Shown here one piece after another: positions 1 through 9,395 of a DNA stretch of 9,395 bases; the stretch's first letter is position 1, and each line of letters starts with the position of its first letter. Made by a program: the position numbers and the translations under genes. The notes below the pieces were generated by a model. That model was not told the origin of the DNA and did not search any database. It saw only the letters and a program-made list of their open reading frames with translations. The stretch is taken from positions 1-9,395 of the forward strand of contig JACMLA010000021.1 of NCBI GenBank assembly GCA_014379815.1, written 5' to 3'. This stretch comes from Bryobacteraceae bacterium. Its GTDB lineage: Bacteria; Acidobacteriota; Terriglobia; Bryobacterales; Bryobacteraceae.

Positions 1-1545
1 CTTTCCCGTTCCGTATCCGGTTTGCTTCACGCACCGTTGATTCGCATTCACCCCGGCACGCAGATGACCGAAGGCGTACTGGCCGAATCGTGGACGCTAA
101 GCGCTGACGGCCGTGAAATGGATGTGCGGCTGCGGCCGCACCTCAGGTTCTCCGATGGCAAACCTTTAACCGCGGACGACGTCCTGTTCACCTTTGCTGT
201 TCACCTGGATGCCCGTGTTGCCTCGCCGCAGCGAGAGGCTTTACGTGTTGGTGGTCAACCGATTCGGGTATCCCGGACAGGCGAACGTGGGCTGCGATTT
301 CAGCTCGTCAGGGCTTACGCACCAGGGGAGCGTCTCCTCGCCGGGATCGCCATTCTTCCGCGACACCTGCTGGCGAAAGCGCACGAAGAGGGCAGGCTTT
401 CCCAGATGTGGACTATCGGATCGCCGGCAGCAGAGATTGCAGGGGCTGGACCGTTTCGACTGAGGTCGATGGAGCCTGGCCGGCGAATCATCTTGGAGCG
501 CAACCCGCACTACTTCAAGAAAGCTCGCACCGGGGCTGCGCTTCCATGGCTTGACGAAATGGAGTTTGTCTTTGCGCCCGGCGAGGACGCCCAGGTGGCG
601 CGACTGCTCTCCGGCGAAGCTGACCTGATCGCCGGCTTTGGGGGCTCAAGCTACCGGGCGATTGAAGCTTCGGGTGCGGCCAGAGGCGTGAGAGCCGCGG
701 ACGCTGGCCCTGGCCTTGATTACACGCTTCTGCTGTTTAACCTGAACTCTGGCGGACCGGAGCGTGCCTCCCGGGCCTGGTTTGAACTGGATGCGTTTCG
801 CCGCGCAGTCTCGATGGCTGTCGACCGTGCCGCAATCGCACGTCTGGTCTACCGGGGCCGCGCGTCTGCCATCTGGGGACCAATTACACCTGCCCGTCGC
901 ATGTGGTTTGACGCGGCTGGGGGGCAGCCGCCGCAATCTGCTTCCGGAGCGCTTGAACTACTGCGCTCCGCCGGATTCCGACAAGATCAGGCAGGAAGTT
1001 TGCTGGATTCCTCCGGCAAGCCGGTTCGCTTCACGATTCTGGCAAACTCCGGAAACCCCGCATATACCCAAACGGGCATCATCCTGGAACAAGACCTGAA
1101 GAAGATCGGAATCGACGCCCGCCTTGTGCCGATGGAATTCCGAAGCCTCGTCGAGCAGGTGGTAACCAAACGTGACTACGACGCGGCAATCATGGCGCTG
1201 CGCCCCGGCGACGCTGACCCGGTTGCTGACATGAACGTGTTCGTTTCCGAGGGGAAAACTCGTCTGTGGAACCTTGGTGGGAAGTCGGAACGTCCCTGGG
1301 AAGTCGAACTGGACCGCCTCATGAAGGAGCAACTCACAGCCCGGGATCCTGCGAAGCGCCGGGAGCTTTTCCACCGTGTGCAGCAAGTGTTTGCACAGCA
1401 GATGCCGATGGTTTGCCTGGTAAGCCCGAATCTCCTGTACGCAGCTCGCGAGAATATCCACAACCTGCAGCCAGGGGCTGTCGGCGACGCTGTGCTGTGG
1501 AACGCCGACGAGTTGTTTCTTGCCCCCGGCATCCGACGCCGATGA
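1..1545 (+). CDS. ABC transporter substrate-binding protein, family 5 (5' truncated by window edge)
   Basis: C-terminal ~514 residues of an extracytoplasmic solute-binding protein of the SBP_bac_5 (OppA/DppA-like) family. Such proteins capture peptides, nickel or similar ligands for an ABC importer. The frame stays open from base 1, so the TTG at 22 is not a credible start. The signal peptide and roughly 60-70 residues are presumably off-window. Visible family hallmarks, numbered from base 1: LAESW (about residue 27), RPHLRFSDGKPLTADDV (about 45), GPFRL (about 150), RNPHYF (about 167), an RRAVSMAVDR segment (about 267), and the C-terminal KRRELFHRVQQVFAQQMP segment. No permease or ATPase gene follows. 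Instead the TGA overlaps the ATG of a sigma factor by 4 nt (ATGA), so the two are translationally coupled. The ligand cannot be inferred. The protein could belong to a transporter encoded to the left, or be an orphan binding protein used for sensing. Confidence 0.9.
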   Translation, partial: LSRSVSGLLHAPLIRIHPGTQMTEGVLAESWTLSADGREMDVRLRPHLRFSDGKPLTADDVLFTFAVHLDARVASPQREALRVGGQPIRVSRTGERGLRFQLVRAYAPGERLLAGIAILPRHLLAKAHEEGRLSQMWTIGSPAAEIAGAGPFRLRSMEPGRRIILERNPHYFKKARTGAALPWLDEMEFVFAPGEDAQVARLLSGEADLIAGFGGSSYRAIEASGAARGVRAADAGPGLDYTLLLFNLNSGGPERASRAWFELDAFRRAVSMAVDRAAIARLVYRGRASAIWGPITPARRMWFDAAGGQPPQSASGALELLRSAGFRQDQAGSLLDSSGKPVRFTILANSGNPAYTQTGIILEQDLKKIGIDARLVPMEFRSLVEQVVTKRDYDAAIMALRPGDADPVADMNVFVSEGKTRLWNLGGKSERPWEVELDRLMKEQLTARDPAKRRELFHRVQQVFAQQMPMVCLVSPNLLYAARENIHNLQPGAVGDAVLWNADELFLAPGIRRR

Positions 1546-2108
1546 GCGAGGCCAGCCCTTCGCCTTCCTGGGAGGATGCCGCACTGGTGCAGGCCTGCCT
1601 CGATGGCGATCAGCGCGCATGGGAGGCGCTGCTGGAAAAGTACAAACGTCTCATATACTCCGTGCTGGTCCGCTATCGCCTGCCGGAACAGGATGCAGCC
1701 GATGTCTTCCAAGCGGTCTGTGTAGATCTTTGGAAGGAGCTTGCGAGTCTGCGTGAGGTCGGGGCGCTGCGTGGATGGCTGGCGCGGGTAGCCGCCAACA
1801 GATGCTTTCACTGGAAGCAGCGGCAGACACGTCACTCCCACGAAAGCGTGAGTGAATCCGACATTCAGGACGCCGATGGGTTGCCGGAATGGCTTGCGGC
1901 TCTGGAGCGGGATCAACTGGTTCGCGAGGCGACGGCACGCCTCGGTCAGCGCTGCCGCGACCTGGTCAGGATGCTGTTCTACGAGGACCCGCCTCGACCG
2001 TATGAGTCGATCGCGGCACAACTCGGTCTTGCTACAGGTTCCATCGGCTTCATTCGTGGACGCTGTCTGAAGAAGCTTGCTGCGGAGCTGGAGGCTTCCG
2101 GATTGTGA
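1542..2108 (+). CDS. ECF-like sigma-70 family RNA polymerase sigma factor
   Basis: A 188-residue sigma factor carrying only regions 2 and 4, which would direct RNA polymerase to a dedicated promoter set. Region 2 spans about residues 14-95: LVQACLDGDQRAWEALLEKY, then DAADVFQAV and the GWLARVAANRCFHWKQ segment typical of region 2.4. Region 4 spans about residues 125-182 and ends in a helix-turn-helix with SIAAQLGLATGSIGFIRGRC. The ATG at 1542 is chosen because it overlaps the upstream TGA (ATGA) and puts region 2 at the usual distance from the N terminus. The open frame extends upstream to 1266, but that part is antiparallel coding noise inside the binding-protein gene. No clear Shine-Dalgarno precedes the ATG, so translation probably depends on coupling. 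The downstream gene overlaps by GTGA. The exact ECF group and target promoter are not recognisable from sequence alone. Placement next to a TPR-CHAT gene and an anti-sigma-like gene suggests these two control it. Confidence 0.92.
   Translation: MSEASPSPSWEDAALVQACLDGDQRAWEALLEKYKRLIYSVLVRYRLPEQDAADVFQAVCVDLWKELASLREVGALRGWLARVAANRCFHWKQRQTRHSHESVSESDIQDADGLPEWLAALERDQLVREATARLGQRCRDLVRMLFYEDPPRPYESIAAQLGLATGSIGFIRGRCLKKLAAELEASGL
2090..2094 (+). promoter_or_regulatory. Shine-Dalgarno GGAGG for the CHAT gene
   Basis: GGAGG lies inside the sigma factor's last codons, 10 nt before the GTG at 2105. It supports that GTG, which overlaps the sigma TGA as GTGA, as the real start of the TPR-CHAT protein. 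Confidence 0.6.
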
Positions 2109-4951
2109 CTGCCGTGCAGTTCGGAACCCGGGTTCGCAATCGAGCCGCGGCCACCGTCCTCCAGGATAGTGGGGAAGTTTCTGTCAGCGCGGAATTGGCT
2201 TACCAATTCTGTGACCAGGCTCGACAGGCAATGCGTAACGATGTCCGCCTCGCGCTAGGGTTTGCGGACGCAGCGTGCGCCACAGCTCGACATGTCTCCG
2301 ACCGCCGCGCGATTGCGGAAGCTCTTCGCATGCGGGGCCACGTCAGCTACCTGTCCGGTGCCTGCAAGGCGGCCGTTGCGGACTACAGCAGAGCGGTGGC
2401 GATCCTCGGGGATCTTGGCGCGCACGTCGATGTGGGACGGACCCTGAGCAGCGCATTGCAGAGCGTGATCTACCTTGGGGACTACGAGAAAGCTCTGGAA
2501 TGGGCAGCGCGGGCCCGGCAAATCTTTCAGGCAGACGGCGATCTGCTCAGGCTGGCTCGCCTCGACAGCAACGAAGCGAACATATTTCACAGGCAGGACC
2601 GTTTTGACGACGCCAAATTCCTGTATGAGCGGGCGGCGGAACAGCTTCGCCGGCTCGGCGACCTCGATTCGGCAGGAATTGCACTTCGCAATCTTGCAGT
2701 CTGCCACTCGGACATGTACTCGTTCGATGCTGCGTTGAGGTGCTACGGCGAGGCCGAGAGTTTGTACAATCAGCGCGGTCTCGCCCGGCTGGCAGCTGAG
2801 ATTCGAGACAATATCGCACACCTTCACTACCTCCGCGGCGACTATCTGGAAGCCCTGCATGCCTGTCGAGAATCGGCCGCCGGGGAGCGGGACAACACGT
2901 ATCAACTGGCGGTAACCCGCCTGGATCACAGCAGCCTTTTGCTTGAGCTCAATCAATTCAGTGAGGCGGCGCGTCTTGCCTCCGACGCAGCGGGCCGTTT
3001 TGCCCGGCTGGGTATTCGCTACGAACGGGGTCAGGCACTGGTAAATTTAGCTGTCGCATCGTATAGAACTGGGGATGCGAAGCGGGCTTTGCAGTACCTG
3101 CGCGAGGCAGCGACGCGGTTCCGGCAGGAGAGGAACAGTACCTGGCTGGCCACAATCGACTACTACAAGGCTGCCTTTCTTCTCGGACTGGGCCGAACAG
3201 ACGAGGCGAGAACGCTGCTGGCCGATACGGTGAACCGCACAGCGGCCGGGCCACTTACAGGGAAGCAGGTTTCGGCACTGCTTCTGCTTTCGAGGATCGA
3301 ATTAGAGGCGGGACGCCTCGGCGAGGCTAGCGCCTGCCTCGATCGAATCCAGCATCAAAGGCTGGCGTTCAACACCCTGCCGGTGCGCTACCAGCTCGCT
3401 GTGCAGTCAGGCAATCTCCTTCGTGCCCAGGTTGACGCTGGCGCAGCGTGGATCCAGTATCGGGAAGCAGCCAATATCCTCGGCATCATGCGCGGCCAGT
3501 TCGGGAGTGACGGACTGCGGATCTCCTTTCTGGCCGACAAACGGGATTGCCATGAACGCCTCGCTGAGATGGCTCTTGGCGGAGCGGTCCCGTGTCACGC
3601 CGAAGAAGCGCTGCAGATTGTGGAACAGGCAAAGTCGCAGAGTCTCGCCGAGGCAATGCTCCAAGGACCCGATAGCCAGGACAGCGCAGTGGCATCGAAA
3701 GCCCGAGTCATTCGTCAGGAGCTCTCATGGTGTTACCGCGAGTTCGACCGCATAGAGGACAGCCCGCGGCCATCGAATCCTTCTTCCCCGGAGAGACTGC
3801 GTTCGCGCATCGCGGCTTTGGAGGAGCGACTTTCCGCGGAGTGGTCCACCGGCGGTATTGCGCCGAGCCCCGAAACCTCATCCGCCAGACTGGACTTGTC
3901 TGCCTCGCTGGATGCGGATGAATCCCTCATCGAGTACTTCGCAACAGGCGGACAGTTGTACGCCTTCGTGGCCCGCAGGGGAGCGTTACAAGTGGTATCT
4001 CTGGGTTCAATGGAAGCGGTGGAGCAATCTCTCCGAATGCTTCGATTCCAGATGGCTCGCGGGGTCAGCACAGGGGCTAAGGCAGTCGCGCCGGCCTGGC
4101 TAGCAGCCACCCAGGCGCATCTGCGGCGGCTCGGCGAGTTGCTGATTGCTCCGCTGCAGCAACACCTGACGGCGGGTCACTGGGTTATTGTGCCCCACGG
4201 CGTTTTGCATCGACTTCCGTTCCATGCGCTGTACGACGACGGCGGATACCTGATCTCACAACGTACAATTTCATGTGCCCCGAGCGCTACTGTGTGGCAG
4301 CTCTGCCAGTCACGAGCAGCCGGCAGGGGATCAGAGCCTGTGGTATTCGGGCTCCCCGATGCGCGCGCTCCGCAGATCGCCGAAGAACTGGAGCACTTGC
4401 GACAATGCCTGCCCTGTGCCCGCGTCTTCACCGGACCGGACGCGACGTTGGGTCGCTTTCGCGAACTGGCGCCACAAAGTGGGCTGGTCCACCTCGCAAC
4501 GCACGGCGTATTCCGACAAGACAATCCTCTGTTCTCCTCTGTGAGGCTGAGCGATGGCCGGCTGTGTCTGTATGACCTGTATAACCTGCAGCTTCAGGCA
4601 GACCTCGTGACGTTGAGCGGTTGCGCCACCGGAGTGCAGGAAACATGGGGTGCCGACGAGGTGATGGGGCTCACGCGCGGACTTCTGATCGCAGGGGCGC
4701 GCGCGGCACTGGTCTCGCTCTGGGAAGTGAACGACGCAAGCACGGCTCGGTTTATGAGGAGTTTCTACCGGGGCTTGTGCGCCGGTGCCACTATCGCGGC
4801 ATCCTGTCGCGCTGCCATGCTGGAAATGATCGAACTGACACCGCATCCGTACTACTGGGCGCCGTTTGTCCTTACAGGAAAAGTGAGAATCTCACTGAAG
4901 GATCTATTTTTGGATTCCGGGACTCACCCTGTTGAGTGGGGAATAGCGTGA
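2105..4951 (+). CDS. TPR-CHAT protein (caspase-like peptidase with N-terminal tetratricopeptide repeats)
   Basis: A 948-residue cytoplasmic protein with no signal peptide or membrane segment. Residues ~60-460 are helical TPR-type repeats, with recurrent patterns such as ALEWAARARQIF, GDLDSAGIALRNLAVC and GDAKRALQYLREAA. They should form a superhelical sensor or partner-binding scaffold. Residues ~500-580 are a charged helical linker, probably coiled coil (ALEERLSAEW). Residues ~605-928 are a CHAT domain of peptidase clan CD. Its signatures are VIVPHGVLHRLPFHAL (about 694), LVHLATHGVF with the predicted catalytic His800, LVTLSGCATG with the predicted nucleophile Cys840, and GLLIAGARAALVSLWEVND (about 859). 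Both dyad residues are present with the usual spacing of 40, so the domain is probably active. The GTG start at 2105 overlaps the sigma stop. The TGA at 4949-4951 overlaps the next gene's GTG. The substrate is unknown; the adjacent anti-sigma-like protein is the obvious candidate by context. A purely scaffolding role cannot be excluded. Confidence 0.93.
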   Translation: MTAVQFGTRVRNRAAATVLQDSGEVSVSAELAYQFCDQARQAMRNDVRLALGFADAACATARHVSDRRAIAEALRMRGHVSYLSGACKAAVADYSRAVAILGDLGAHVDVGRTLSSALQSVIYLGDYEKALEWAARARQIFQADGDLLRLARLDSNEANIFHRQDRFDDAKFLYERAAEQLRRLGDLDSAGIALRNLAVCHSDMYSFDAALRCYGEAESLYNQRGLARLAAEIRDNIAHLHYLRGDYLEALHACRESAAGERDNTYQLAVTRLDHSSLLLELNQFSEAARLASDAAGRFARLGIRYERGQALVNLAVASYRTGDAKRALQYLREAATRFRQERNSTWLATIDYYKAAFLLGLGRTDEARTLLADTVNRTAAGPLTGKQVSALLLLSRIELEAGRLGEASACLDRIQHQRLAFNTLPVRYQLAVQSGNLLRAQVDAGAAWIQYREAANILGIMRGQFGSDGLRISFLADKRDCHERLAEMALGGAVPCHAEEALQIVEQAKSQSLAEAMLQGPDSQDSAVASKARVIRQELSWCYREFDRIEDSPRPSNPSSPERLRSRIAALEERLSAEWSTGGIAPSPETSSARLDLSASLDADESLIEYFATGGQLYAFVARRGALQVVSLGSMEAVEQSLRMLRFQMARGVSTGAKAVAPAWLAATQAHLRRLGELLIAPLQQHLTAGHWVIVPHGVLHRLPFHALYDDGGYLISQRTISCAPSATVWQLCQSRAAGRGSEPVVFGLPDARAPQIAEELEHLRQCLPCARVFTGPDATLGRFRELAPQSGLVHLATHGVFRQDNPLFSSVRLSDGRLCLYDLYNLQLQADLVTLSGCATGVQETWGADEVMGLTRGLLIAGARAALVSLWEVNDASTARFMRSFYRGLCAGATIAASCRAAMLEMIELTPHPYYWAPFVLTGKVRISLKDLFLDSGTHPVEWGIA

Positions 4952-5595
4952 AGCATTATTCACTGGAAAACTGGGTCGATTATTTACGCGGTGTCTCTGA
5001 TCCGGCTCGGGAGCCGATGATGAAGGAGCACCTCGCTTCCGGCTGCACGCAATGCAGGCGGCATCTGGAACTACTTCAAGCAGTCAGCCAGAGCGCTTGC
5101 GAGATTGCCGTTCCGGACGCATGGCTGCAGCGGGCAAGCAGCATCTTCCCCCGAGTCTCCCCGCCGGCCGCTAAATCACCGATCACCAGACTAGTAGCAG
5201 CACTCACGTTCGACAGTTTTGCAATGCCAGTTCAGGCTGGAGTCCGGACCGCACAGTCGGAAGTTCACCGGCTCACCTTCACGTCCGAAGACGTGACCCT
5301 CGAACTCATGGGCGAAGCAGGTCCTGACGTCAATACCATGGCGGTGACGGGGCAGATTTCGTCTCTCAGCGGAAGCCAGCCGTCCTCCCCTTACCGGATC
5401 CGGCTGCTGCAGCGGAAGACAGTTTTGCAGCAGATCACGGCGAATGTTTTCGGCGAGTTTCAGGTCAACCTGCCGATTCAGACCGGCCTAAGCATGGCGG
5501 TGGTGGATGAGACCACAGGTCGCGAGACCGCAGTTCCCCTCGACCTTTTTGTGACTCATCTGACCAGGTCCGGCAATAGTAAGTCCCACGACTGA
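4948..5595 (+). CDS. putative zinc-finger anti-sigma-like protein with C-terminal beta domain
   Basis: A 215-residue soluble protein. The N-terminal ~50 residues resemble the zf-HC2/ZAS fold of anti-sigma factors: a helix, then H28, C33 and C36 (HLASGCTQC, H-x4-C-x2-C rather than the classical H-x3-C-x2-C), then a helix RRHLELLQAV. Residues ~78-98 (LVAALTFDSFAMPVQAGVR) are only mildly hydrophobic and interrupted by Asp, so no membrane helix is apparent. Residues ~105-200 alternate as beta strands (VTLELMGE, MAVTGQIS, YRIRLLQR, ANVFGEFQVNLP), resembling a carboxypeptidase-regulatory/Ig-like sandwich. I chose GTG 4948 over GTG 4936 because it forms the same 4-nt GTGA overlap seen upstream and has GGGGA 5 nt before it. 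By position it is the likely binding partner of the sigma factor, the CHAT protein or both. Anti-sigma activity is inference; an adaptor function is equally possible. Confidence 0.75.
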   Translation: MKHYSLENWVDYLRGVSDPAREPMMKEHLASGCTQCRRHLELLQAVSQSACEIAVPDAWLQRASSIFPRVSPPAAKSPITRLVAALTFDSFAMPVQAGVRTAQSEVHRLTFTSEDVTLELMGEAGPDVNTMAVTGQISSLSGSQPSSPYRIRLLQRKTVLQQITANVFGEFQVNLPIQTGLSMAVVDETTGRETAVPLDLFVTHLTRSGNSKSHD

Positions 5596-5605
5596 AAATC
5601 AGCAT

Positions 5606-5610
5606 AGGAG
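5606..5610 (+). promoter_or_regulatory. Shine-Dalgarno AGGAG for the subtilase gene
   Basis: AGGAG sits in the 21-nt gap after the anti-sigma-like gene and 6 nt before the GTG at 5617. It fixes that GTG, which begins a good signal peptide, as the start and shows independent initiation rather than strict coupling. Confidence 0.75.
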
Positions 5611-5616
5611 ATTCTT

Positions 5617-6972
5617 GTGAAATTTTTATTCCAGGCTCTGGTTCTTCTGCTGGTGAGCAACGGTGCCGCGCTGGCAGCCGACCTGCTCATCGTCCGTGCG
5701 CCGTCTTCTTACATGCAGGAGCTTTCGGCGAAATTCAGGTTTAATATACAAAAGCGAATTCTCGGACAGGACATCTATCTGGTCCAAAGTCCTGCTGGCA
5801 TCACTGGTGCTCAGTTGATGCGCGATCTGGAAAACTACGACTACGGTAAGGATCCGGACACCGATGATGATGACGACGACGATGTGCGGGCAGAAGACAA
5901 CTTTTCTGTCACGCTCGCCGAAACAGGTGACGGCCTTCCCCGGCTGGTGACAAACACAACGCCTGTCGTCAATGCCATCACGAACCGTACATTTGTTTCG
6001 TTCCACGGAAAGCAGGCATGGACCGGGTATGTGAATCAACCGTCGGCAAGTCGGATTCGCATCTCCGAAACACATCGCCGGTATGGGACGGCCGGTGCCA
6101 TCGTTGCCATCATTGACACTGGCATCGACCCCAACCATCCCCTTCTGGCGGATTCCATCGTGTCGGGTTACGACTTCATACGCGACCTGCCGGGCGTACC
6201 TTCCGAGTTGGATGACCTCGACCCGCTCACGCGAGAACTCCTGAATCCGTACACCACCGCAATACTCGACGTGCTTTCGGAAGTCAATCCGTACACAACT
6301 GCGATCCTCGATCAGTTCACGGCCAGGCGCCTGGACGCGGCACGGCTTCCGCCGCAGTTCGGTCACGGCACCATGGTTGCCGGCATAATCCGGCTGGTTG
6401 CGCCGAGTGCACGCATTATGCCTCTCAAGCCCTTCGGCGGGGATGGACGAGCTCGTCTGTTTCATTTGCTGCAGGCCATGTACTTTGCGGTGGATCACGG
6501 AGCGAGCGTGGTCAACATGAGCCTGAGTCTGGCAGCCCCCTCCGAAGAGTTGGAGCGTGCAGTGGAGTATGCCGCGTCGAAGGGCGTTGTACTGGTTGCC
6601 TCCGTCGGCAACAGTGGGCGGGAAACCATGTCATGGCCGGCGGGCTACCAACAGGTCATCGGAGTGGCAGCAACCAGTATGCAGGACACTCCAGCCGTCT
6701 TTACGAATTTTGGCGATAACGTGACAACAATCGGCGCACCCGGTGAGGCCGTCATCACGTTGTATCCCGGCGGCCGCTACGCCGCGGGATGGGGCACGTC
6801 CTTCAGTGCACCGATGGTGTCAGGCGCTGTCTCCATTATGAAGCGCCTAAAACCCTCAATAAACTGGGAAAAGGCCGAAGCCGCCGTCAAAGAGGCCGCG
6901 CCGGCAACGGGAGGCATGGGCAACGGCCGACTGGACATGTTTCGCGCCGTAAGAAAGTCGACGGAATTTTAG
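5617..6972 (+). CDS. secreted S8 family (subtilisin-like) serine peptidase
   Basis: A 451-residue subtilase. Residues 1-20 are a Sec signal peptide (MKFLFQALVLLLVSNGAALA, likely cut before or near ADLL). Residues ~22-75 look like an I9-like propeptide (LLIVRAPS, ILGQDIYLVQSP). An acidic linker follows with seven consecutive Asp at 83-89. The catalytic domain runs from ~145 to 448: Asp167 in IIDTGID, His250 in FGHGTMVAG, oxyanion Asn332 in VGNSG and Ser395 in GTSFSAP. The triad is complete, so the enzyme is predicted active outside the cytoplasm. Between Asp and His there is an insertion with two copies of NPYTTAILD (residues 210-218 and 224-232). No C-terminal anchor is visible after the catalytic domain. 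The gene is 21 nt downstream of the anti-sigma-like gene on the same strand, so it is probably in the same transcript. Its substrate is unknown; processing of the neighbouring secreted proteins is a possibility only. Confidence 0.95.
   Translation: MKFLFQALVLLLVSNGAALAADLLIVRAPSSYMQELSAKFRFNIQKRILGQDIYLVQSPAGITGAQLMRDLENYDYGKDPDTDDDDDDDVRAEDNFSVTLAETGDGLPRLVTNTTPVVNAITNRTFVSFHGKQAWTGYVNQPSASRIRISETHRRYGTAGAIVAIIDTGIDPNHPLLADSIVSGYDFIRDLPGVPSELDDLDPLTRELLNPYTTAILDVLSEVNPYTTAILDQFTARRLDAARLPPQFGHGTMVAGIIRLVAPSARIMPLKPFGGDGRARLFHLLQAMYFAVDHGASVVNMSLSLAAPSEELERAVEYAASKGVVLVASVGNSGRETMSWPAGYQQVIGVAATSMQDTPAVFTNFGDNVTTIGAPGEAVITLYPGGRYAAGWGTSFSAPMVSGAVSIMKRLKPSINWEKAEAAVKEAAPATGGMGNGRLDMFRAVRKSTEF
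5863..5883 (+). repeat. GAT/GAC triplet run encoding seven aspartates
   Basis: Seven successive Asp codons (GAT x3, GAC x3, GAT) join the propeptide-like segment to the mature domain of the subtilase. The run extends an already acidic stretch (KDPDT before it, VRAED after it). It is a flexible acidic linker, possibly Ca2+-binding or a processing site. As a triplet repeat it can change length without breaking the frame. Confidence 0.7.
6244..6312 (+). repeat. duplicated NPYTTAILD-coding segment in the subtilase
   Basis: Two 27-nt copies (6244-6270 and 6286-6312, period 42 nt) both encode NPYTTAILD but differ at several third-codon positions. The duplication is therefore either old or kept by selection at the protein level. 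It lies between the catalytic Asp and His. Confidence 0.8.
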
Positions 6973-7004
6973 CAGATCCTCTATCAGAGTTCCGGCTGCC
7001 ACAC

Positions 7005-7039
7005 CCTTTTTTCACGAACGTTTCGCTAGTGAGAAAAGG
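7005..7039 (+). promoter_or_regulatory. hairpin enclosing the Shine-Dalgarno of the solenoid gene
   Basis: CCTTTTTTCAC (7005-7015) pairs with GTGAGAAAAGG (7029-7039) over 11 bp with one G-U pair and a 13-nt loop (7016-7028). The 3' arm contains the AAGG of the AAGGAG Shine-Dalgarno (7036-7041), which lies 8 nt before the ATG at 7050. In RNA the stem would hide part of the ribosome binding site. This is consistent with translational control, but the A/U-rich stem could also simply be weak structure. It is not a terminator, because the U run lies in the 5' arm. Confidence 0.5.
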
Positions 7040-7049
7040 AGAAGACAAA

Positions 7050-7856
7050 ATGAATTGCAGAGGAAATGCGATACTCGCTACCCTCCTGTTCGTGGCAGCC
7101 GGTACCGAGTCTTTCGCACAAACCGTCACCTGGACTGCGGGGAGAACGCTACGCATTGATTTCGTAATGCCGGCAGCCGCATGGCCGCTGGCTCCAAACA
7201 CTCTGGCGACCTACGGCGGTTATGCAACCATCGTCCAGCCCCACACCAGAATGACTGGCGTCCTGTATAACGGCGCAACCGTCATGGGAGTGTCCCAATC
7301 CGTGTACAGCAATGTGAGGCCGGGGCTGTACTCCTTCTATCCCCTTGGACCTTCCTTCAAGTCGCCGGGCAGTCCGTACAATTTCCCGAGAGACGGTGAA
7401 CCCGCCGTTGTGGACTTCACTCCCATCTGGAACAAGACCATCCAGGGACGCCTCGAATACACCATCGATACAGGTAATATTCAGATCAATCTCGGGTCAG
7501 TAGCGCTGGCGCTTTCGGAAAGCGCCGGACCGAACTACGGACAGTCAATCTATCCCAGCCCTCAGATCCTGTCCGTGAAGATGCTGCCGGAGGTGCCCAC
7601 CGATCCACCACCTCCGCCACCGGTGGTTCCCGGACCGCCAATGATGAGCGGTGACGATGACATCTTTATGACGCCGTCTGTTCTCAAGTCCTGGTGTGAA
7701 TCGACGAAAGGCACAGCCATCCTGGTCCGGACCAACTTAACCGTAAAGGGATCGTCAACTACGCCTGTGCAAATCGCATCCGGTTGTAAATCGCATCCGG
7801 TTGTACCCTCGACCTTGCGGCCGGAGTTACCGTGCTCTTCGATTCCGCTGCTGTGA
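7050..7856 (+). CDS. secreted proline-linker/solenoid protein, 5' part of a frameshifted gene
   Basis: As it stands this frame encodes 268 residues of unrecognised family. The ATG at 7050 is preceded by AAGGAG at 8 nt and opens a Sec signal peptide (residues 1-23, ...LLFVAAGTESFA). Residues ~25-180 form a Gly/Pro/aromatic-rich, probably beta domain (FVMPAAAWPLAPNTLATYGGY, VYSNVRPGLYSFYPLGPS). Residues 184-197 are a poly-proline linker (PTDPPPPPPVVPGPP). After that a solenoid-like region begins (ILVRTNLTVKGSS...VQIASGC). The last ~22 residues (KSHPVVPSTLRPELPC..., to the stop at 7854) are out-of-frame translation created by a 17-bp tandem duplication at 7771-7804. Removing one copy joins the frame to 7805-8713 and gives a 548-residue secreted protein. 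The gene follows the subtilase by 77 nt and is probably in the same transcript. Function is unknown; a cell-surface or matrix role fits the architecture. Confidence 0.8.
   Translation: MNCRGNAILATLLFVAAGTESFAQTVTWTAGRTLRIDFVMPAAAWPLAPNTLATYGGYATIVQPHTRMTGVLYNGATVMGVSQSVYSNVRPGLYSFYPLGPSFKSPGSPYNFPRDGEPAVVDFTPIWNKTIQGRLEYTIDTGNIQINLGSVALALSESAGPNYGQSIYPSPQILSVKMLPEVPTDPPPPPPVVPGPPMMSGDDDIFMTPSVLKSWCESTKGTAILVRTNLTVKGSSTTPVQIASGCKSHPVVPSTLRPELPCSSIPLL
7771..7804 (+). repeat. exact 17-bp tandem duplication causing a frameshift
   Basis: AAATCGCATCCGGTTGT occurs twice back to back (7771-7787, 7788-7804) with no mismatch. Because 17 is not a multiple of 3, the extra copy shifts the reading frame inside the solenoid gene. 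Deleting one copy reads QIASGC directly into TLDLAAGVTVLFDSAAVNF, restoring one long frame. Confidence 0.93.
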
Positions 7857-8713
7857 ACTTCTCCGGACCGGTCAACATCCAGAGTCGTGCACGGGGCGCA
7901 TTCAAACTGCTGAAGAGTCTGGTGTCTGCACCCGTGTGCACGGTCGACTTGCGCGGGGCCGGGAGTGAGATTTTGTTCGCAGAGTCTACTCTGCGCGCCA
8001 CAGCGGGACCGCTCGCAGTGGCCTTGGGAGACGAGGCGAAGTTTGAGATTGGCAAGGTCTTCAGTGGACAGACGGATGCTCTCTCGGCCACTGACAAGCT
8101 GACGGTAGCAGCAGGGCGCAAGTTTGTGGCCGGACTATTGGGAGTAAATGTCCGGGGCAATGCAGGAATCCACTTCAATTTGACGGGCGATGAAGTCAGC
8201 CTGAAGAGCCTAGACGGAAACACATTCTCCGCTGCTCAGGGCTCTATTCAGATCAATGGCTCCGGCTCTAAAAGTCTGCTGGAGATTGCCGATACGCAGT
8301 TGCTGTTTGGTCAGTCCTTCGGCATCACGTTGTCGGGCAACGAAAACACTATAAAGCTCAACAAGAGCACAATCGGGCCGTCCTCCGGAACTGCGTCAGC
8401 AGGAATCACGATCAGTGCCGGAACAATTGATGATAACGGCAAGGTTGAAGCGTCCGAGGTGACGTTGCGTCGGGCCCGCTTCGCCACAATCGGGGCCTCC
8501 CGCTCACACGGTTCCGGCCTTCTCAAGTGGGAAAAAGGAACGGCCAGCATCGCAGGCAATCTCTCGTTCGAAGGCAGCGGTTTTACTGAAGTAAAGGACA
8601 GCAGCATCACGTCTCCCGGTACCATTCGCATCGCGAACACCACTGGCGGATCATGTAGTGGCGCGTCGAACAGCCTCTCCGCTCCAGTCCTCCAAATTTG
8701 TCCGCCCTTCTGA
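7832..8713 (+). CDS. beta-solenoid protein fragment, 3' part of the frameshifted gene
   Basis: A 293-residue frame, if started at GTG 7832; it is open back to the duplication at 7804. It has no signal peptide of its own and continues the solenoid begun in the preceding frame. Short alternating strands and turns recur throughout (VTLRRARFATI, SITSPGTIRIAN, LLGVNVRGNAGIHFNLTGDEV), rich in Gly, Ser, Thr and Asn. This is the look of a right-handed beta-helix/filamentous surface protein, although no named family is recognised. Two cysteines lie near the C terminus (SCSGASN, QICPPF), and no LPXTG or PEP-CTERM-like anchor is visible. GGAG 5 nt before GTG 7832 and the 25-nt overlap with the upstream stop at 7856 could allow reinitiation. 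The product would then stay in the cytoplasm, so it is more likely the stranded 3' half of one gene than an independent gene. Confidence 0.75.
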   Translation: MLFDSAAVNFSGPVNIQSRARGAFKLLKSLVSAPVCTVDLRGAGSEILFAESTLRATAGPLAVALGDEAKFEIGKVFSGQTDALSATDKLTVAAGRKFVAGLLGVNVRGNAGIHFNLTGDEVSLKSLDGNTFSAAQGSIQINGSGSKSLLEIADTQLLFGQSFGITLSGNENTIKLNKSTIGPSSGTASAGITISAGTIDDNGKVEASEVTLRRARFATIGASRSHGSGLLKWEKGTASIAGNLSFEGSGFTEVKDSSITSPGTIRIANTTGGSCSGASNSLSAPVLQICPPF

Positions 8714-8725
8714 ACCCTGTGATAC

Positions 8726-8751
8726 GGCCTGCTCTTAGTGGAGGGCAGGCC
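8726..8751 (+). terminator. putative intrinsic terminator after the solenoid gene
   Basis: GGCCTGC (8726-8732) and GCAGGCC (8745-8751) form a perfect 7-bp GC-rich stem with a 12-nt loop, followed by TTGACTTTT. It begins 12 nt after the TGA of the solenoid frame. The T tract is interrupted, so efficiency is uncertain, but position and stem strength suit the end of the operon. Confidence 0.6.
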
Positions 8752-8873
8752 TTGACTTTTGCCCTTTAGCCGTTACGTTCGCAGGTTCAACTATTTCCCA
8801 GTTCGTGGATCAACCCTTTACCAGTGATGTTAGTGCCTGCCTATCTGGGCTGACATCGGAATAGTAACTTCAA

Positions 8874-8878
8874 AGGAG
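8874..8878 (+). promoter_or_regulatory. Shine-Dalgarno AGGAG for the right-edge secreted protein gene
   Basis: AGGAG (within AAAGGAG) lies 11 nt before the ATG at 8890. The spacing is slightly long but no better start is near; the next in-frame ATG (8944) would destroy the basic n-region of the signal peptide. Confidence 0.6.
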
Positions 8879-8889
8879 ATTTACTTACC

Positions 8890-9395
8890 ATGATTGGTAA
8901 AAGCAATAAGACCAGAATTGCGATCTGCAGGGTTGCGGGATTGATGATCACAGGGGTGTTGTCTGTGGCAGGTGAAGAAACACGCTGCACCGGAACAATC
9001 ACAGGATCGCACGATAACGTTGTGGTTCCGCAAGGCGCGGTGTGCGTGCTCAACAATGCTGACCTCAACGGATCCGTGTATGTCTACCGTGGCGGCGGCA
9101 TCACAATTTCCGGGCTTACGTACATCAATGGCAATGTCATCAGCGAGGATGGCGGCGCTTACGTGCGAATCACCGGACGCAGCGTTACAGTAGGCGGCAA
9201 CGTTCAAATCAAATACAACTACCAGACCAGCAGCTTACACCCCGGGACATCGATTCAGGGCAGTCTGCAGTATGTCGAGAACACCGGATATTTGTCCGTG
9301 TCAGGTGTCTTCATCGGCAGCGACCTGCAACTGTTCAAGAACACAGGTGGCGCCTCACTTACTCGAAATACCATCCGGCAGAACATGCAGTGCAA
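8890..9395 (+). CDS. secreted beta-helix repeat protein (3' truncated by window edge)
   Basis: An open frame of 168 codons plus two bases with no stop before the right edge. The N terminus is a plausible Sec signal peptide: basic MIGKSNKTRIAICR, then hydrophobic VAGLMITGVLSVAG, with cleavage near residue 28. The rest alternates short strands with Gly/Asn turns in rungs of about 20 residues: TCTGTITGS-like start (actual CTGTITGSHDNVVVPQG), ADLNGSVYVYRG, TYINGNVISEDG, VTVGGNVQIKY, TSIQGSLQYVEN, VFIGSDLQLFKN and NTIRQNMQC. Recurrent G-(N/S)-V/L-Q steps are typical of right-handed beta-helices with an Asn/aliphatic ladder. Such secreted proteins are usually annotated as hypothetical. The gene is separated from the solenoid gene by the terminator-like hairpin, so it may be a separate transcription unit, though it shares strand and protein style with it. 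Function is unknown; a surface-structural role is inferred. Confidence 0.8.
   Translation, partial: MIGKSNKTRIAICRVAGLMITGVLSVAGEETRCTGTITGSHDNVVVPQGAVCVLNNADLNGSVYVYRGGGITISGLTYINGNVISEDGGAYVRITGRSVTVGGNVQIKYNYQTSSLHPGTSIQGSLQYVENTGYLSVSGVFIGSDLQLFKNTGGASLTRNTIRQNMQC

Follow-up and report, generated by a model that had tools for sequence, protein, structure and literature searches.

A conserved Acidobacteriota gene cluster proposed as a peptide-gated ECF sigma factor switch

Caspase-like CHAT proteases are common in bacteria, and to our knowledge few of them have known triggers or substrates; we also know of little described signalling in the phylum Acidobacteriota. Here, we analysed a stretch of 9,395 nucleotides from a Bryobacteraceae bacterium of this phylum (contig JACMLA010000021.1, positions 1 to 9,395; hereafter, the window), which carries genes for an extracytoplasmic function (ECF) sigma factor, a TPR-CHAT protease and a small zinc-motif protein, flanked by the genes of a peptide-binding protein and of a secreted S8 subtilase. 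Three described systems come close to this arrangement; each is considered from excerpts of the papers cited. In type III-E Craspase, Csx29 cuts Csx30, the inhibitor of the sigma factor CASP-sigma (PMC10028731). For the ECF54 group, proteolytic control without an anti-sigma factor was proposed on the basis of conserved carboxypeptidase, subtilase and CHAT neighbours (Casas-Pastor 2021, cited through PMC8999054). In the RRNPP systems of Gram-positive bacteria (PMC8605241, PMC10569065), a peptide is exported, imported through Opp and read by an intracellular TPR receptor, with which it coevolves.

The cluster shares with Craspase a TPR-CHAT protein, a putative ECF sigma inhibitor and, as we propose, relief by cleavage of that inhibitor, a step that is experimental in Craspase (PMC10028731, in excerpt); it differs in that the inhibitor is of the zinc-binding anti-sigma (ZAS) type and that a peptide, as opposed to target RNA, seems to serve as the signal. 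With RRNPP it would have in common an exported peptide, Opp import and an intracellular TPR receptor that coevolves with the peptide, and the differences are several: the output is a caspase-like protease with a sigma/anti-sigma pair instead of a helix-turn-helix (HTH) domain or a phosphatase, the peptide is embedded in a secreted subtilase, and the host belongs to the Acidobacteriota. An RRNPP receptor would be a TPR protein with an HTH or Rap-type output, whereas the output domain found here is CHAT. The module resembles RRNPP and Craspase in its proposed working and, by the features tested, is a member of neither.

We propose that this cluster works as an ECF sigma switch gated by a peptide and give the full chain of steps set out below a probability of about 0.5. 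The observation that carries this reading is that an octapeptide repeated in the subtilase diverges along with the N-terminal TPR repeats of the protease, beyond what the phylogeny of the loci accounts for.

The gene cluster and its conservation

All window features lie on the forward strand. The genes for the sigma factor (188 aa; 1542..2108, ATG at 1542), the TPR-CHAT protein (948 aa; 2105..4951, GTG at 2105) and the zinc-motif protein (215 aa; 4948..5595, GTG at 4948) are joined by 4-nt ATGA/GTGA overlaps; open reading frames (ORFs), coordinates and overlaps are all as given in an initial annotation of this DNA, made from the sequence alone, which had presented the three genes as a stand-alone switch. 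The trio is real; two usual parts of the cluster had been overlooked. Upstream, the gene for the SBP_bac_5 peptide-binding protein of an Opp/Dpp-type ABC importer (SBP5; 1..1545; PF00496, 1.5e-64) enters the window from the left, its 5' end lying beyond it, and its stop overlaps the sigma start (ATGA). Downstream, the S8 subtilase gene (451 aa; 5617..6972) begins 21 nt past the zinc-protein gene. A GTG at 4936 is a possible alternative start for the zinc protein, and the M-K/E-H opening seen in most relatives favours 4948.

Two of six zinc-protein homologues retrieved by search have a named organism, Bryobacteraceae in one case and Bryobacterales in the other, which by itself makes an origin of the window in this group probable. 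A zinc-protein scan of species genomes gave six Acidobacteriota loci, in which tblastn found CHAT in 6/6, sigma in 5/6 and S8 in 5/6 neighbourhoods; at L003, the contig ends and an S8 fragment was detected by profile. Larger, overlapping surveys covered 396 genomes of the phylum, 257 of one order and 397 of another. They placed the zinc protein in at least 59 of the first set at E ≤ 1e-3, a figure that includes weak partial matches, and in at least 50 and 53, respectively, of the two order sets at E ≤ 1e-20; the counts are lower bounds, as only some candidates per genome were scored (in the large searches, 7 or 12). We fetched 131 places, chosen as the strongest zinc-protein matches and not as every genome match, and counted the 78 that had at least 6 kb upstream, at least 5 kb downstream and E < 1e-15; the 64 with 9.5 kb upstream were used for the transporter and gene-order counts. 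All these figures start from the zinc protein and give the share of its places that have a given partner; they do not give the share of partners that have a zinc protein nearby.

Within 6 kb of the zinc protein, profile searches detected the sigma factor in 73/78 places, CHAT in 69/78 and S8 in 68/78, with all three present in 64/78. Sigma and CHAT were found together beside it in 68/78 places, a positive outcome for the survey of joint conservation that the initial annotation had called for. Among the 64 longer places, SBP5 was near in 46, OppB in 42, OppC in 43, an ABC ATPase in 44 and all four in 39. The commonest gene order, SBP5-sigma-CHAT-zinc protein-S8, accounts for 33/64; other places have sigma-zinc protein-CHAT-S8 or CHAT-S8-sigma-zinc protein, or carry S8 or the transporter on the opposite strand. 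Because the association recurs under different gene orders, a joint function is indicated. The trio is part of a larger conserved Acidobacteriota module made of an Opp-type transporter, sigma factor, TPR-CHAT protein, zinc protein and secreted S8 subtilase, and the switch is not stand-alone in that the transporter and the subtilase usually belong to it.

The sigma factor was correctly recognized at first sight: it matches TIGR02937 with 76.8 bits (cut-off 42.9) and, over region 2, Pfam Sigma70_r2 with 47 bits (2.3e-12; cut-off 24), while its region 4 match (16.8, E 0.005) is below the cut-off of 24.1. With regions 2 and 4, no region 3 and about 190 aa, it has the make-up of an ECF sigma factor. 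The TPR-CHAT assignment holds equally, with a PF12770 match at residues 671-925 (2.9e-63), TPR_12 repeats, and the dyad residues at the numbers first given, His800 (codon 4502..4504) and Cys840 (codon 4622..4624). The dyad, described as intact in the window, is in fact intact in 108/108 cluster CHAT domains, the window's included. By eye, the protein has no export signal or signal peptide. It is a CHAT protein and not Csx29, as it reaches 32.3 bits against the NCBIfam Csx29 model, whose cut-off is 300. No Cas family appeared among the Pfam matches of the eight window ORFs scanned, and no search was aimed at Cas7-11.

The zinc protein is, by homology, an anti-sigma factor with an added beta-sandwich, in keeping with the role first assigned to it; both family homology at the sequence level and pairing with the sigma factor point this way. 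The motif H28-x4-C33-x2-C36 is present at 5029..5055, and His3 or Cys3 is the likely first ligand: among 126 family places, 93 have His at position 3 and 27 have Cys. H-x2..5-C-x2-C is found in 121/126 places and an upstream C/H ligand with x3/x4 spacing in 119; the family, thus, has the ZAS ligands (C/H ... H-x3-C-x2-C), with x4 as the spacing in the window. Searched against PDB, the family profile matches RsiW (9.2e-7), DdvA (1.5e-4), 3hug_B (1.9e-4), which we take to be RslA, and ChrR (2.4e-3), and its C-terminal part matches the beta domain of pyrogallol hydroxytransferase (8.5e-6). In single-protein scans at E ≤ 0.01, 44 family members gave NCBIfam "anti-sigma factor" in 11, zf-HC2 in 8 and CarboxypepD_reg in 13 cases; the window's 215-aa protein alone had no Pfam or NCBIfam match at this threshold.

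The AlphaFold2 model of the zinc protein has a mean predicted local distance difference test (pLDDT) score of 84.1, with four helices (6-14, 22-30, 34-48 and 57-66) within residues 6-66 and a beta-sandwich at 81-197, in line with the beta domain noted initially; matches in the structure search are dominated by this beta domain. The first ~89 positions of the profile alone match other proteins (about 25 among the matches listed). Five of these, similar to one another, were opened: in 5/5, the match lies 18-42 nt after a sigma match and a run of hydrophobic residues can be seen, and Pfam scans of two of the five identified them as zf-HC2 proteins. This is the ordinary layout of a membrane anti-sigma factor. 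Moreover, sigma and zinc protein remain paired without an adjacent CHAT gene at L111, L151, L207 and L208. Compared with the ZAS anti-sigma factors (RsiW 5wuq, ChrR 2q1z, 3hug_B), the zinc protein likewise has an N-terminal zinc domain, predicted to contain four helices, and a gene near that of an ECF sigma factor; it differs by the H-x4-C-x2-C spacing of the window, the usual ZAS spacing being H-x3-C-x2-C, by the beta-sandwich C-terminus and in that no membrane helix was seen. As a side observation, the N-terminus of a 991-aa CHAT-domain protein (PDB 8rot_B, residues 3-48) weakly matches the anti-sigma zinc domain and is perhaps a natural anti-sigma/CHAT fusion.

This anti-sigma factor is what separates the module from ECF54 as described. 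The likeness, an ECF sigma factor beside CHAT, subtilase and carboxypeptidase-type proteins (PMC8999054, in excerpt), is one of neighbourhood: CHAT and S8 are found in the window and in most places, and the zinc proteins with CarboxypepD_reg (13/44) are probably the "carboxypeptidase" of ECF54. Such neighbourhoods were already known, but ECF54 is described in the excerpted text without an anti-sigma factor, whereas here a ZAS-type protein is in the cluster and the carboxypeptidase-like protein bears the anti-sigma zinc motif in 121/126 places. The octapeptide, its TPR link and the importer are likewise absent from the ECF54 account in the excerpt of PMC8999054.

The repeated octapeptide and the TPR repeats

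The window subtilase matches PF00082 with 133 bits (1.8e-38; cut-off 21.8) and has, by eye, an N-terminal signal peptide; its catalytic triad (D167, H250, S395) is invariant among 53 aligned proteins, and its structure model has a pLDDT of 91.6. In many cluster S8 proteins, an eight-residue sequence is repeated two to 17 times, ahead of the catalytic His and often with one more copy in the pro-region; in the sigma-zinc protein-CHAT order, the copies are in the pro-region only. In the window, PYTTAILD occurs at residues 211-218 (6247..6270) and 225-232 (6289..6312), shortly ahead of His250. Copies are near-identical within a protein and variable between proteins, with 25 kinds in 55 loci (such as PYTTAILD, QSTVAILD, QRTVAVLD, QSTGVILD, QETTPILD and QSTVEILD). 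Where present, the pro-region copy lies about 90 residues away and matches the other copies, an agreement not accounted for by simple tandem duplication.

Under a single search rule, the repeat was detected in 89/110 cluster S8 ORFs, in 0/21 non-cluster S8 proteins, which come from the same kind of genomes and are distant relatives of the cluster ones, in 0/73 SBP5 ORFs and in 0/111 TPR ORFs. This is the wider of two rules; the narrower one gave 77/110 and left 16 ORFs unparsed. The non-cluster control consists of the 30 best Pfam S8 loci, minus 7 without a match to the cluster S8 profile and 2 that were cluster members. The largest number of copies is that of the L039 subtilase (L039:10042-11973), which has 17 copies of QSTGAILD (with up to two mismatches), many of them within a pro-region that is enlarged and contains repeated spacers. 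Two subtilases from the CHAT-S8-sigma-zinc protein order (L077:7703-9097 and L078:7556-8845) have a different pro-region repeat, SWSIGG.

Co-variation was computed for 55 loci: among the 74 with a parsed octapeptide, 58 are in the gene order of the window, and 55 of these have complete genes. Octapeptide distance correlates best with that of the TPR part (raw r 0.495), followed by the anti-sigma factor (0.41), the S8 catalytic part (0.345), CHAT (0.328) and sigma (0.308). Given sigma, CHAT, the S8 catalytic part and the anti-sigma factor, the TPR part keeps a partial r of 0.368, which 0/1000 permutations reach, and 0.352 and 0.379 when the set is thinned to 46 and 36 loci; given the TPR part and the rest, the anti-sigma factor keeps 0.088 (reached by 10/200 permutations), and the others are negative. 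The octapeptide follows the TPR part (0.384 given S8) more than the catalytic part of the protein that carries it (−0.069 given TPR); in the 46 loci with SBP5, the corresponding values are 0.291 for TPR given SBP5 and 0.039 for SBP5 given TPR. The signal is confined to the N-terminal repeats at residues 39-296 (2219..2992; partial r 0.437) and drops to 0.054 past residue 296; draws of 150 random TPR columns have a mean r of 0.24 (range 0.063-0.445 over 50 draws). When the set is split into 30 loci (those of one order, with the window added) and the remaining 25, both parts show it. Since permutation p-values ignore relatedness, octapeptides were also simulated along the locus tree, with 150 runs at each of six rates; the observed TPR value was reached in 0/900 runs and the anti-sigma value in 8/900, under a null that is imperfect because simulated octapeptides track the tree less (r 0.08-0.27) than real ones do (0.41).

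One octapeptide position stands out. Val at position 4 goes with Ser at TPR residue 195 (Arg in the window; codon 2687..2689), Ser being found in 25/25 Val4 loci and in 0/30 others (55/55 agree), by a rule chosen post hoc from these same 55 loci. The best column for Val4 has a phi of 1.00 in the N-terminal TPR part, against 0.74 in SBP5, 0.67 in the C-terminal part of the TPRs, 0.65 in sigma, 0.64 in CHAT, 0.56 in S8 and 0.52 in the anti-sigma factor. With the TPRs left out of the tree, Val4 and Ser195 changed four times each (Fitch count), and none of the simulated traits (four rates, 1000 each) perfectly matched any of 1397 column states. From the TPR consensus, residue 195 is presumably position 5 of a TPR helix A, on the ligand-binding face.

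The rule held in 10 of 11 left-out loci, a test from which 20 loci without a parsed octapeptide, 9 with another gene order and L126 (a gap) were set aside. With the prediction fixed beforehand, 33 further loci were fetched, and all 18 testable ones agree, nine each way. In eight of these 18, the octapeptide differs from that of the nearest training locus; L199 and L203, the latter with its sigma and CHAT genes on the opposite strand, have the state opposite to that of their nearest relative, and the rule still holds.

A proposed circuit and its alternatives

How could such a cluster work? In the chain that we propose, the ECF sigma factor would be kept inactive in the cytoplasm by the 215-aa anti-sigma factor, the subtilase would be exported, and a fragment containing the octapeptide would be released from its copies. 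The co-encoded Opp-type importer would take this fragment into the cell, where the N-terminal TPR repeats would bind the octapeptide with sequence specificity. Binding would activate the His/Cys CHAT protease, by analogy with the effect of target RNA on Csx29, and the active protease would cut the anti-sigma factor, probably in a conserved loop near Arg100 (codon 5245..5247), which would free the sigma factor. We propose this loop as the candidate CHAT cut site: Arg100 is R in 125/126 family places, the remaining one being a gap, and residues 91-100 are modelled with a pLDDT of about 60. For the sensor role initially suggested for the TPR array, the octapeptide of the neighbouring subtilase now provides a candidate ligand, the sensing itself being read from sequence co-variation.

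Several observations weigh against this reading. Besides the post hoc choice of the Val4/Ser195 pair, only Val4 among the eight octapeptide traits tested clearly singles out the TPRs: Ala4 and Thr4 have better columns in the S8 catalytic part (0.68 and 0.71) than in the N-terminal TPR part (0.52 and 0.54), and the distribution of Val6 mirrors the clade in all proteins. The exception among the left-out loci, L043 (QSSAAVLD), has Ser195; ten of the 18 loci predicted in advance share the octapeptide of their nearest training locus; and the rule fails in the sigma-zinc protein-CHAT order, where two of the nine places with the repeat have Val4 and neither has Ser195. The imperfect tree null and the remoteness of the S8 controls, mentioned above, also count here. 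The parts are not always all present, with SBP5 missing within 9.5 kb in 18/64 longer places, 21/110 cluster S8 ORFs without the repeat, 5/126 zinc proteins without the H-C-C motif and some zinc proteins without a sigma factor (L112, L066). Finally, one octapeptide copy lies partly within a beta-strand of the S8 model, and a repeated 8-mer occurs in 119/120 of the closest S8 homologues in a protein database, whatever their neighbourhood. Because of the latter figure, the repeat is tied to the S8 subfamily, of which it may be a structural trait.

The same figure speaks for a first alternative, in which CHAT would cut the anti-sigma factor on another signal (envelope or redox, for example, through the TPRs or the zinc) and the octapeptide would be merely structural. 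The conserved trio and the intact dyad suit this alternative too, and ZAS zinc ligands can be redox-active. We nevertheless hold it to be unlikely, since the octapeptide diverges with the TPRs (0.384) more than with the catalytic domain of its own protein (−0.069) and predicts residue 195 in new loci.

A second alternative concerns the place where TPRs and octapeptide meet. As the TPR-CHAT protein has no export signal visible by eye and the subtilase has one, for the two to meet the peptide must either re-enter the cell or be met before export. The TPR-CHAT protein could, thus, read the octapeptide on subtilase not yet exported, and the circuit would monitor the export of its own protease, as a secretion stress response. 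Co-variation is silent on the meeting place, and SBP5 is not near in the 18 places just mentioned. Reading before export would, however, leave unexplained both the Opp neighbourhood (SBP5 in 46/64 longer places, all components in 39/64) and the multiplication of the octapeptide (up to 17 copies, L039), and we find it more doubtful than the first alternative; we favour import, given that most places have the importer nearby. Least probable of all is that the sigma factor is itself degraded by CHAT, or that CHAT serves as a scaffold, with the anti-sigma factor left uncut: the excerpt of PMC8999054 does place ECF54 among sigma factors held inactive by proteolysis, but an anti-sigma factor is present in the cluster, and a dyad that is never lost (108/108) argues against a pure scaffold.

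The peptide-gated chain would amount to peptide communication of a new build in Acidobacteriota, in which an octapeptide borne by a subtilase would return through Opp and be read by TPR-CHAT by means of a position 4/residue 195 code, leading to destruction of the anti-sigma factor and to a sigma regulon switched on; we put this wider picture forward tentatively, at slightly under even odds. If it is true, peptide sensing by TPR receptors and Opp import is not restricted to Gram-positives, the ECF54-type neighbourhood gains its missing anti-sigma factor, and a genome that carries multiple copies with distinct octapeptides has several private channels. Both a trigger and a substrate are, thus, proposed for the CHAT protease of a module present in many Acidobacteriota. 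No paper on the link of the octapeptide to the TPRs was found in the literature searched; as far as that literature shows, this link, the octapeptide itself and the anti-sigma domain in a carboxypeptidase-like protein are new.

Multiple copies, neighbouring genes and an actinomycete locus

One genome (G138) has seven zinc-protein matches, six of which were fetched (L047, L054, L066, L067, L071 and L073), five of them with sigma and CHAT nearby; these multiple copies suggest parallel channels. In four loci, S8 is followed by a gene whose product looks, by eye, like an HD-domain protein (L002:12372-13085, L004:12241-12933, L005:12084-12935 and L006:11888-12802). Downstream of the cluster in the window, the gene at 8890-9395 encodes a product that is repeat-rich by eye and 70% identical to that of L001:12137-12583; this gene may belong to the regulon of the sigma factor. 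No tRNA and no Rfam family were found in the window. Outside the Acidobacteriota, a locus of Nonomuraea (Actinomycetota; L079:7691-13039) has S8, sigma and then a beta-domain protein, with TPR and CHAT matches on the other strand. The beta-domain protein matches profile positions 43-122 (E 3e-4), is without the zinc finger and has, by eye, an Arg at the equivalent loop position, so that the module may reach Actinomycetota.

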